This document shows, one piece after another, positions 10,808 through 29,328 of a DNA stretch of 49,142 bases. Source of the stretch: Lachnospiraceae bacterium (GTDB lineage Bacteria; Bacillota; Clostridia; Lachnospirales; Lachnospiraceae); contig JAILQX010000043.1 in the NCBI GenBank assembly GCA_024698705.1, forward strand, positions 1 to 49,142. The letters run 5' to 3'. Every line of letters begins with the position of its first letter. Position 1 is the stretch's first letter. Under the pieces are notes generated by a model. The model was not told the DNA's origin. It saw only the letters and a list, made by a program, of their open reading frames with translations, and did not search any database. The position numbers and the translations under genes are program-made.

Positions 10808-11019
10808 TACCGACCCTTTCAAATGAAGGAGTAAGAAGCGAAAAATCTTTAAAAAGGCCTTAAACCCGTGCCGGTGCTCACCATCATGTTAATGAATCTT
10901 TCCGGTCTGTTGAATACTTGCTTTATTGCTTGATATTTACTGCCCAAAGCACGCTTCGGCTCTTGGTTGCTATATGTACGGAAAATAAGTCCTATTGCAA
11001 TATACTCGAAACTGACGAG

Positions 11020-11222
11020 TTAAGATACAATTGACTTATCAAGAGCTTTTATCTTAATTATTGCTCAAAATATACATCAAAACAGTCTTTTTTCAGTTTT
11101 AGTTAAGATCATCCGGACGATTTCACAGCATTTATCTTACTTAACTGCTAAGCATCCTCTTTTTTCCGCTTTTTTTAAGATACTTTTCGAATATCAGGGC
11201 TCATTATCTTAAATCGCGTCTT
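11020..11222. promoter_or_regulatory. Six alternating TTAAGATA / TATCTTAA motifs
   Basis: In this gene-free stretch the 8-mer TTAAGATA or a close variant appears at 11020, 11103 and 11175, each followed by its reverse complement (TATCTTAA, or TATCTTA at the second) at 11050, 11133 and 11215. This makes three inverted pairs with start-to-start distances of 30, 30 and 40 bases. The array lies 215-420 bases upstream of the -10 of the LuxR-type gene. It resembles a multi-site operator; the binding protein is unknown. No gene is recognised between 10773 and 11606. Confidence 0.4.
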
Positions 11223-26262: not shown

Positions 26263-27417
26263 TTGAAACGCAGCAAATACTTTAAAGCGGTCATCATAAT
26301 TACGATCCCGACGATAATACTGAATATCCTGGCTTGCATCCCTGCATTCTGTAACATGTATGCAGACAGTGTCTATGGCGTTATAGCGGATGTTTGCGGC
26401 AGATTCACCGGTAGCTTCGGTCTTCCGCTCGGTGAGATACTGATGTATGCATTTGCTCTGATCGCGTTTGTATGTATCATATCAGCCATATTGCTTATCT
26501 TCCTGCGCAGAAGGCAGGGTTTTGTCGCATTTGCAAAGCATTACATGAAGTTCACTCTTATGCTGTTTTTGTGCATGCTCCTTATATATACGCTCAACTG
26601 GATCATTCCGTACAGAAGTGAAGTTTGTGCCATTAGAAGTACTCCGAAAGATACTACATATTCTCTTGAAGAAGTAAGGTGGGTGAGAAATCATTTTGTA
26701 AATGAGGCAAACAGGCTTTCTCTCGAGGTCGAGAGGGATTCTGACGGCAATGTCATTTACCCTTCCAGGGCTGATATGCTTATCGAAGTGACCGCTGCAA
26801 TGCAAAATGTATCAGCTGATTTCCCGCGTCTTAAAGGTTATGTCCCGCCGATGAAGGAGGCGCTTTGTTCTCCCGCTCTCGAATGGATGAGTATCGGTGG
26901 TTACACATATCCTTACACTATGGAAGTTACCTGCAACAAATATTGTTCCGGTATGTACTATCCGGTTCTTCTCGCCCATGAGGAGAGCCATCATCAAGGG
27001 TACTATCATGAAAACGAGGGAGAATTCCTCGCGTTTTATATCAATCTCAAAAGTGATGTCCCGCGGTTAAAGTATTGCACCTATCTGGGTAACTACTATC
27101 GGATAAATAATGCTTACATTGAGTTTTTGAAAAAGCTGCCTAGGGATGCTGCACAGGCCCTGCGGGCTGAGGATCCCGTGTATTCCGATCTGGTTCGCGC
27201 AGATATCAAATATGCTTCAAATGAACAATCGGAGCAATACAACAATGACGCTCACCCTTTTGAAAATATGTCCGATACCGCAGAAAAGATCAGTGACACC
27301 GGCTGGGATGCCCAGGCTGCGGTCATTGGTGAAAATAACTACGACGGTATCGTAAAAATGCTGCTGGATTATTACGCCGACGAAATGGCGGAGGACGATC
27401 GGTTTTTTGCGCACTAA
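26263..27417 (+). CDS. DUF3810-like membrane zinc metallopeptidase
   Basis: The start is TTG with GGAG eight bases upstream. The 384 residues have three hydrophobic segments (about 8-30, 58-80, 96-116), then an outside domain with HEESH at 239-243 followed by ENEGEFLAFY, the HExxH plus downstream Glu of a gluzincin-type site and typical of the DUF3810 family. Substrate is unknown. The C-terminal region is acidic and polar. It is convergent with the candidate RNA; the gene's stop lies in the RNA's terminator T-run. Confidence 0.82.
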   Translation: MKRSKYFKAVIIITIPTIILNILACIPAFCNMYADSVYGVIADVCGRFTGSFGLPLGEILMYAFALIAFVCIISAILLIFLRRRQGFVAFAKHYMKFTLMLFLCMLLIYTLNWIIPYRSEVCAIRSTPKDTTYSLEEVRWVRNHFVNEANRLSLEVERDSDGNVIYPSRADMLIEVTAAMQNVSADFPRLKGYVPPMKEALCSPALEWMSIGGYTYPYTMEVTCNKYCSGMYYPVLLAHEESHHQGYYHENEGEFLAFYINLKSDVPRLKYCTYLGNYYRINNAYIEFLKKLPRDAAQALRAEDPVYSDLVRADIKYASNEQSEQYNNDAHPFENMSDTAEKISDTGWDAQAAVIGENNYDGIVKMLLDYYADEMAEDDRFFAH

Positions 27418-27763
27418 AAAGCGGATACCAACTCGGAATTCTAATTGATACCCGCTCCCTATGACGATGTGTCCAATGGTCTATACCTCTCTTTCGTATA
27501 ACTTTGACCTATTCAATTGTACTGACATCTTCCGGCGTATTCTCTCTTCGTACTCATGTACCGTGACACCTTGACCTTACTCACAATATTCTTCGGGTCT
27601 TAATCGGCTGCCATCCAACTTTTACGCCCCAACTACCATGTCGCTTCAGAAAAATTCAACTTTCCGGTGGACTGTCCTCCTAACGTCTTATTTTTCTCTA
27701 TCTATAGTAAAGATGCATCTATTCCGAATCCTTTCTGTTCGGATATGATTGCTGTCTGTTTAT
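27416..27763 (-). ncRNA. Candidate structured non-coding RNA, about 345 nt
   Basis: No convincing gene lies between the DUF3810-like gene and aspartate kinase, yet the minus strand has a near-consensus promoter (27770-27797) and a terminator at the other end: GCGGGTATCAA and TTGGTATCCGC (27455-27445, 27431-27421), then TTTTTAG. Inside, stems are visible: TCCGAA/TTCGGA around 27722-27743, and GGTC + TATAC pairing with GTATA + GACC around 27478-27508. It does not match tmRNA, RNase P RNA, bacterial SRP RNA or the common riboswitches by eye. A known family such as raiA cannot be excluded without a covariance search. Confidence 0.55.
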
Positions 27764-27769
27764 GTTCTT

Positions 27770-27797
27770 ATTATATCAAATGCTTCTGATTTGTCAA
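27770..27797 (-). promoter_or_regulatory. Near-consensus promoter of the candidate RNA
   Basis: On the minus strand TTGACA (27797-27792), 16 bases, TATAAT (27775-27770). Both hexamers are perfect sigma-A consensus, the only such pair I found in the window. No start codon with a ribosome site and a sizeable frame follows. Confidence 0.8.
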
Positions 27798-27999: not shown

Positions 28000-29328
28000 C
28001 TATCTTACATCGAGCGCCGATGTTACAAATATATCATAGATAGCCTTGATAGCTGTTTCGAAATCGCTGTTGGCAACACCTATGATGATGTTCAGCTCAC
28101 TGGAGCCCTGATCGATCATCTTGACATTGACATTGGCATGCGCGAGTGCGGAGAATATCCTTCCCGCAGTACCTCTTGTGGATTTCATTCCACGTCCGAC
28201 GACCGCGATAAGTGCAAGATCCGCTTCTATCTCTATGGTGTCGGGTTTTGCCAGACGATGGATACCTGATACAACGCGCTGCTCCTTATCCATGAATTCG
28301 TCCTGATGAACAAATACGGTGAGCGTATCTATTCCGGAAGGCATATGCTCGAAACTGATACCGTTGTCTTCAAATACGTTGAGGACCTTGCGGCCGAAAC
28401 CGATCTCGGAATTCATCTTGTCTTTTTCAATATTTATTGAGCAGAAGCCCTTCTTTCCCGCGATACCCGTAATGATATACTTGGATTTCTGGCATGTGCT
28501 CTCAACGATCCATGTTCCGTTGTCTTCGGGAGCATTCGTGTTCTTGATATTGATCGGGATACCTTCGATACGTACCGGGAAAATAGCATCCTCATGCAAT
28601 ACTCCCGCACCCATGTAGGAAAGCTCTCTGAGTTCCTTATATGTAATGGTCTCTATCCCTTCCGGCTTATCTATGATCCTCGGATCCGCTACAAGGAAGC
28701 CCGAAACATCCGTCCAGTTCTCATAAATATCAACCTTTGCGGCTCTTGCCACGATAGATCCCGTTATATCCGATCCGCCTCTTGAAAATGTCTTGACGCT
28801 TCCGTCAGGCATGCTTCCGTAGAACCCCGGAACTACCGCATTATCAAGCTTTGACAGTGCTATCCCGAGCACTTCGTTGGTCTTCTCATCATCAAAATTG
28901 CCTTCTTCATCAAAAAAGATGACATCGACGGGATCAACAAAACTATATCCCAGATATTCAGCCATGATCCTGCCGTTTAAGTACTCTCCGCGGCTTGCGG
29001 CGTAATCCCTGCCCTTTTTTGTTTTAAAGTTTGACTCGATCGTTTTGAATTCGTCATCGAGGGACATCTTCAGTTTAAGCCCGTCTATTATTTCCTGATA
29101 TCTTTCCCTTATTGCTCCCAGTTCCTTATCGAAAGGCTTGCCTGCCTCCGCCAGATCGTAGCATGCATAGAGCATGTCAGTCACCTTGTTATCCTTGGAA
29201 AATCTTTTTCCCGGCGCACTCGGAATGACATAGATCCTTGACTTGTCGGCACGGATGATATTGCCCACTTTCCCGAACTGCTCAGCGCTGGCAAGTGAGC
29301 TTCCACCGAACTTTACTACTTTTTTCAT
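28000..29328 (-). CDS. Aspartate kinase
   Basis: Phosphorylates aspartate as the first step to lysine, threonine and methionine. Seen: N-terminal KFGGSSLASAEQFGKV, the nucleotide/aspartate region FSRGGSDITGSIVARA, and two C-terminal ACT domains (GISFEHMPSGIDTLTVFV; NVNVKMIDQGSSELNIIIGV) that usually mediate feedback inhibition. At 442 residues it fits the monofunctional Clostridia type. It starts 16 bases after hom. Which amino acid inhibits it cannot be read from sequence alone. Confidence 0.95.
   Translation of the reverse strand: MKKVVKFGGSSLASAEQFGKVGNIIRADKSRIYVIPSAPGKRFSKDNKVTDMLYACYDLAEAGKPFDKELGAIRERYQEIIDGLKLKMSLDDEFKTIESNFKTKKGRDYAASRGEYLNGRIMAEYLGYSFVDPVDVIFFDEEGNFDDEKTNEVLGIALSKLDNAVVPGFYGSMPDGSVKTFSRGGSDITGSIVARAAKVDIYENWTDVSGFLVADPRIIDKPEGIETITYKELRELSYMGAGVLHEDAIFPVRIEGIPINIKNTNAPEDNGTWIVESTCQKSKYIITGIAGKKGFCSINIEKDKMNSEIGFGRKVLNVFEDNGISFEHMPSGIDTLTVFVHQDEFMDKEQRVVSGIHRLAKPDTIEIEADLALIAVVGRGMKSTRGTAGRIFSALAHANVNVKMIDQGSSELNIIIGVANSDFETAIKAIYDIFVTSALDVR

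Follow-up and report, generated by a model that had tools for sequence, protein, structure and literature searches.

Between two convergent genes on a contig of a Lachnospiraceae bacterium (JAILQX010000043.1, of which positions 1 to 49,142 constitute the window, i.e., the whole stretch of DNA analyzed here), the minus strand carries a perfect promoter and, some 350 nt later, a terminator, with no obvious gene in between. Which kind of RNA is encoded there? A preliminary description, made from the sequence, had proposed an unassigned RNA, and its observation of a stand-alone RNA gene of approximately 350 nt on the minus strand is confirmed. The promoter hexamers are separated by 16 nt and match the consensus in 12 of 12 positions; in addition, TG precedes the -10 hexamer. 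A GC hairpin with a T-run ends the RNA at the proposed site (Table 1); the automatic terminator scan overlooked it due to its 13-nt loop. The flanking ORFs, 26263-27417 (+) and 28000-29328 (-), are arranged as described, the latter being aspartokinase-like. A 12-pair UUCG-type terminator-like hairpin is located at 27955-27928 (-), 3' of this upstream minus-strand gene, whose transcript may thus stop short of the RNA.

An ORF scan revealed no long reading frame between promoter and terminator. The earlier statement that this interval has no ribosome site followed by a reading frame of notable size is literally correct, but it passed over two extended ribosome sites inside the RNA, namely two strong Shine-Dalgarno sites, together with a UUG frame of five codons. 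The predicted 350-nt transcript has a better fold than any of its 100 shuffles (z = -3.1), while the fold of the terminal unit alone is on par with shuffles (z = -0.1).

Table 1. Features of the RNA gene, in positions of the window.
Feature	Position	Strand	Remarks
-35 hexamer TTGACA, A/T-rich tract 5' of it	27792..27797	(-)	in 17/17 aligned genus copies
-10 hexamer TATAAT	27770..27775	(-)	TATAAT, TATAGT or TATATT among aligned copies
Predicted transcript, ~350 nt	27414..27763	(-)	putative start 7 nt past -10 hexamer
5' hairpin UCCGAA/UUCGGA	27723..27743	(-)	arms 27743-27738 / 27728-27723, by eye
Unit 1, start-less	27656..27680	(-)	GGAGG ACAGUCCA CCG GAA AGU UGA
Structured insert separating the two units	27524..27642	(-)	helices from covariation
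Insert helices	27642-27638/27528-27524; 27628-27624/27538-27534; 27561-27558/27553-27550	(-)	last one is a GUAC hairpin
Nearly invariant ACAAUUGAAUA	27510..27520	(-)	genus alignment
Terminal unit	27459..27495	(-)	GAAAGAGAGGU (Shine-Dalgarno), AUAGACCA (spacer), then UUG GAC ACA UCG UCA UAG
Mini-ORF UUG-D-T-S-S-stop	27459..27476	(-)	UUG and in-frame stop in 17/17 aligned genus copies
Intrinsic terminator	27416..27456	(-)	stem 2 nt after mini-ORF stop; arms AGCGGGUAUCAA / UUGGUAUCCGCU at 27456-27445 / 27431-27420, 12 pairs including two G-U; T-run to 27416

The RNA had been placed outside known families, and this is supported. A covariance search with the 4227 models of Rfam 15, which include tmRNA, raiA, OLE and ROOL, gave no match at gathering threshold at the RNA, and the window region revealed three chance-like matches only at E <= 10. 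For 15 relative loci, merely two tRNAs were found at gathering threshold; for eight loci, a single match, antisense, appeared at E <= 0.05. 6S RNA was rejected, as no RF00013 match occurs at the locus and the genome has a 6S candidate of its own on another contig (G000:C37:127006-127181; 42.7 bits against a cut-off of 46.4). 6S-like matches with E <= 0.001 exist in 13 of 20 genomes of the genus, two of them above the cut-off, and the Rfam 6S model seems to be weak in this genus. RNase P RNA was rejected as well, its RF00010 match (305 bits) lying on another contig (C43).

The preliminary description had suggested examining relatives for conservation and covarying pairs, and both are present. 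The unit from promoter to terminator is held by 18 of the 20 genus genomes. Blastn retrieved the RNA in 17 of them and in none of 41 other genomes, except for one 24-nt match; a covariance model of the core (R1) lifts the genus count to 18, with all five good assemblies positive, and the two genomes devoid of an R1 match are 74% and 84% complete. The 17 aligned copies all have the promoter hexamers of Table 1 and a terminator hairpin. They further share GGAGG or GAGG...CCACC (CCGCC in one copy) close to the RNA start, the motif ACAAYU(G/U)AAUA, and GAGGU...CCAUUGGA, behind which a UAA or UAG stands in frame ahead of the terminator. In one genus genome, a second, weaker match pair was observed beside the main RNA (G001:C23:17460-17652).

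The insert helices covary in the genus alignment. Across 13 rows, the 17 named pairs are formed in 91% of the cells and nine of them show double changes, values reached by none of 500 shuffles; when the pairing partner is slid by one to three columns, insert pairing falls to 11-43%. The outermost helix is paired in 75% of its cells only, the other two in 95% and 100%, and the number of further pair types in the insert shows no excess over shuffles (365/500). RNAalifold, applied to all 17 rows, predicts 31 pairs including the terminator, 14 of them with double changes. As to the two stems proposed earlier, judged by eye, UCCGAA/UUCGGA is missing in one subgroup of the genus and has covarying hairpins as counterparts in the other, but GGUC-UAUAC/GUAUA-GACC is not conserved in relatives.

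A restriction to the genus, as suggested by blastn alone, was overturned by profile searches. R1 matches 36 of 299 family genomes, at loci of different-looking RNAs with the same two conserved pieces, which are frequently repeated. Judged by these pieces, the RNA is a member of a wider class of putative tandem ribosome-site RNAs. A further model (R2), built for two neighboring units from sequence alone, was trained on pairs 46-66 nt apart and hence favors arrays of such spacing. At E <= 0.01 it has matches in 223 of the 397 family genomes, a figure that will include some chance matches. In the 174 family genomes without a detectable array, the function may be dispensable or accomplished otherwise; many of the sources are metagenome assemblies. 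At E <= 1e-4, R2 has matches in 26 of the 295 genomes searched at the level of the order, of which 24 belong to the family and two to a single genus of a different family; for the phylum, three of 398 genomes match, again all of them family members. Thus the class appears close to family-restricted, and chance matches are rare at this threshold.

A pattern search matched 103 stretches. Among the 80 record titles listed, 52 say Lachnospiraceae, and Hominifimenecus microfluidus and Mordavella massiliensis are among the names; at least two units lie within reach of each other in 53 of these 80 stretches, whereas 27 have one, some of the latter surely by chance (e.g., a Lactococcus and a Thermoplasmata record). 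Five Ruminococcus records (L142, L146, L170, L175, L187) share the single motif GGAGGUAYAGUCCAAUGGAGUGA, followed by a similar stretch in four of them; this is not an array, and single motif matches, these and others, were left out of the counts.

Each unit consists of a purine-rich Shine-Dalgarno sequence (often GAAAGGAGGU or GAAAGAGAGGU), the spacer AYRGWCCA, and codon 1. The near-fixed stretch GAGGUAYRGWCCA, in which the spacer is about as well conserved as the Shine-Dalgarno, leads to a start codon (AUG/UUG) or to a non-start triplet, mostly CCN. Among 118 non-identical arrays, 69 have two units, 27 three, 14 four, and eight have 5-11; at least one AUG or UUG unit occurs in 112, and the first unit is of the CCN type in 77. 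Codon 1 is distributed over 319 units as AUG 94, CCA 67, UUG 59, CCG 37, AAG 20, CCU 15 and others fewer, a tally of all loci scanned, including 23 stretches beyond the 80 listed. None of 123 unit intervals is below 45 nt, the commonest is 51 nt, and the tail extends to 294 nt. Given the size of a ribosome footprint, this spacing would leave room for one ribosome per unit. Promoters matching at least 11 of 12 consensus bases precede 82 of 116 arrays, compared to 4 of 396 mononucleotide shuffles, and a terminator-like hairpin follows the last unit in 103 of 116 (a count without shuffle control).

The Shine-Dalgarno sequences, up to AGAAAGGAGGU, are complementary to the 3' tail of 16S rRNA. This tail, GGCTGGATCACCTCCTTTCT, was found in 2 of the 20 genus genomes and is absent from the window's own draft, presumably because draft genomes often lack 16S genes. 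The duplex energy of 319 distinct units with the tail has a median of -12.5 kcal/mol, compared to -8.3 kcal/mol for 599 ORFs, each represented by the strongest of its several candidate starts, and -5.7 kcal/mol for shuffles. CCN units are strongest (-13.7 kcal/mol), and start-bearing units reach -11.1 kcal/mol.

In all 58 inner start-bearing units (from 34 loci, none of them known genus loci), codons 2-8 include a stop in frame, as compared to 17 and 15 units in the other frames; a few of the 58 are terminal units with a spurious further match behind them (e.g., in L077). The corresponding numbers are 90 of 98 for CCN units (other frames 34 and 40) and 32 of 36 for other start-less units (15 and 18). 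Start-less units usually have the in-frame stop since a stop at codon 4 belongs to the common motif CCR-RAA-ACN-UAA, and part of the in-frame stop signal is therefore inherited RNA motif. Where the codon-4 stop is lost, all 18 start-bearing units concerned keep another in-frame stop (9 and 6 in the other frames), as do 12 of 20 CCN units (13 and 12) and 10 of 14 other start-less units (12 and 8), the latter two types favoring no frame to any great extent. The difference between start-bearing and start-less units yields a one-sided Fisher p of 0.0027; neither units from the same array nor genomes from the same lineage are independent trials, such that p values are optimistic. The frame seems to be guarded where a start codon is present. 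Counts outside the genus omit its known loci; two further genus-like loci (L222, L231) remained, which can affect only CCN units having the codon-4 stop. That start-less units are translated from an in-frame start further upstream is disfavored, as such a start occurs for 29 of 121 CCN units versus 33 and 27 in the other frames.

The last repeat usually is a frame of 5-7 codons ending at the foot of the terminator. Among 68 start-bearing terminal units that lie near a terminator outside the genus, 53 terminate in frame at codons 6-8 (other frames 19 and 32) and 15 have no in-frame stop ahead of the terminator; within the genus, the in-frame end is present in 15 of 15. UAA, UAG and UGA are all seen as terminal-frame stops.

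Two-unit versions of the class are present in viral contigs as well. L237, which carries phage-type genes for DNA polymerase, a Dda-like helicase and NrdD, has an array with a TTGACA...TATAAT promoter, the units UUG GAC GGA AAU UAA and UUG UAC AAU UAA, and a terminator. It lies at 1640-1845, directly before the DNA polymerase gene, as does that of L246 by resemblance; in L257, the unit comes after an apparent tRNA 3' end. Among 35 viral sites in 34 stretches, including the group L246-L277, 30 have TTGACA-N15-19-TATAAT within 90 nt upstream. Of the five sites without promoter match, L253 is cut by the contig end, and L238 and L263 resemble ordinary gene starts. All 22 distinct phage first units (L245, L238, L263 and repeated sequences left out) have an in-frame stop, at codon 3 (11), 4 (10) or 5 (1); in the other frames, a stop by codon 8 occurs in 12 and 9. 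Eight second units, defined by a strict pattern, end at codon 6 (six) or codon 4 (two), and in five of the eight the +1 frame carries a stop at codon 4 as well; the phage sequences counted are close relatives. A 44.9-kb viral contig, L245 (IMGVR_UViG_2802429519_000001), contains a three-unit array of the bacterial CCACC type at about 10880-11080, with promoter-like sequence and terminator, which is perhaps a prophage flank. A two-unit exact pattern and a first-unit CCACC pattern both matched nothing in the viral contigs.

The simplest account of these features, namely the strongest 16S complementarity in start-less units, guarded frames, spacing, promoters, and no constantly attached gene, would be an unproductive occupation of ribosomes. 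We tentatively prefer, as a quite possible reading, a stand-alone, strongly promoted, trans-acting RNA with tandem, mostly abortive ribosome sites, i.e., a ribosome decoy. Once transcribed, the RNA would dock 30S subunits via the 16S tail at its start-less units (CCN as well as other types), with no need of a start codon, and initiation at its AUG/UUG units would be followed by termination within 2-7 codons. The RNA would load several ribosomes which make nothing useful, and free initiation capacity of the cell might be lowered or buffered, much as 6S RNA occupies RNA polymerase. 6S RNA mimics open promoter DNA and binds the polymerase. The two RNAs are alike in standing alone and in the proposed mode of occupying a core machine; the target of 6S is RNA polymerase, whereas that proposed here is the ribosome. 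With less confidence, we consider it possible that the arrays represent a dedicated ribosome-occupying RNA, widespread in the family, that parks 30S subunits or ribosomes as the translational counterpart of 6S, and that phages may use on host ribosomes.

The main feature which a ribosome decoy leaves unexplained is the near-fixed spacer; a decoy of this kind needs none. That AYRGWCCA is conserved to the degree of the Shine-Dalgarno may point to a further specific ligand or to a fold of the RNA. The best-surviving alternative, although unlikely in our view, is accordingly a protein sponge, in which the core GGUAYRGWCCA binds a translational repressor that recognizes ribosome sites and the RNA titrates this repressor, as CsrB does CsrA; start and stop codons would be present as the units copy target mRNAs. 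This would accommodate the spacer conservation past the Shine-Dalgarno, the small GG...CC hairpin that the core can form, and the strong promoters, and the 2-11 similar short sites per stand-alone RNA with variable linkers are shared with sponges of the CsrB/RsmY type. Unlike in these, however, GGA is not enriched (nine sites observed in the window RNA, 9.3 expected; the other 16 genus RNAs are within about three of expectation), and in a hand-picked sample of 80 genomes, whose array-bearing members came from the stronger matches, CsrA was found in 12 of 40 with an array and in 23 of 40 without one. As CsrA is missing from 28 of the 40 array-bearing genomes, it is disfavored as the ligand for the class; the window genome is among the 12, and presence or absence thus decides nothing for the window RNA alone. 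The window genome lacks a second exact core, its 20 sites with at most one mismatch compare to 28 for a reversed control pattern, and frame-specific stops after start codons are not predicted by a protein sponge.

Titration could also be directed at RNA. Units that mimic ribosome sites might sequester C-rich small RNAs, of which RsaE/RoxS and LhrC are examples, or pair with mRNAs. In favor of this, on the strand opposite a six-unit array (L028 1439-1541 (+)), rli22 of Listeria (CL00114, the clan to which LhrC presumably belongs) matches at E 0.043; with 34.4 bits against a gathering threshold of 80, this array's antisense strand is not a member of that family. Neither strand of the window genome holds an exact complement of the 13-nt core elsewhere, and in-frame stops are again not predicted, which renders an RNA sponge improbable.

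A further step down in probability is a minigene effect, by which start-stop translation would drain particular tRNAs through peptidyl-tRNA drop-off, or the terminal pentapeptide itself would act, such that the RNA slows growth or serves as a signal. The start-bearing units share the anatomy of minigenes: In PMC8708949, axe-txe mg2, LEE1 and LEE4 are described as Shine-Dalgarno, start, one to few codons, and stop. Unlike the cases described there, which sit in leaders before a gene, with mg2 acting in cis, our mini-ORFs are tandem and belong to a distinct RNA that has a terminator of its own. A common theme is seen in terminal peptides outside the genus (e.g., MDEIV, MDTVSE, MDSEV; MDNVN and MDTVA in phages), but peptides are variable even inside the genus, and the frequent CCN unit in first position would be superfluous for drop-off.

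Very improbable is a ribosome-shielded RNA, where bound ribosomes only guard the transcript from nucleases and the insert or linker does the work. According to PMC8708949, which there reports on other work, a strong Shine-Dalgarno and a six-codon mini-ORF are enough to stabilize a transcript against RNase E, and the window RNA does have a covarying insert; several arrays, however, have no such insert and are little but units. Least probable of all is a cis leader, in which a ribosome reaching the last mini-ORF opens the adjoining terminator for transcription of a downstream gene: The terminator stem does begin close to the stop, at -4 to +2 nt, in 67 of 68 in-frame terminal cases, and 67 of 96 arrays outside the genus have a same-strand downstream gene, but such a gene would always be needed and is convergent at the window RNA and in 29 of the 96, the same-strand excess may be background (upstream genes are 59 same-strand versus 39 opposite), neighbors differ between genera among the matches listed, and the last stop of phage L246 lies about 27 nt ahead of the terminator.

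To our knowledge, bacterial RNAs built as tandem arrays of ribosome sites, with start-less and start-stop units side by side, have not been described as a class. Among the matches listed from open-licence literature, titles and abstract beginnings describe no such class. The main text of PMC8040213 on 3161 candidate gut RNAs contains no mention of Lachnospir, tandem or Shine-Dalgarno; its supplements may include the RNA. If ribosome occupation holds true, the arrays would represent a new layer of translational regulation in this large gut-bacterial family, and their phage copies allow a comparison between host and phage. If the ligand is a protein instead, they would still constitute a new post-transcriptional regulator of the Lachnospiraceae.
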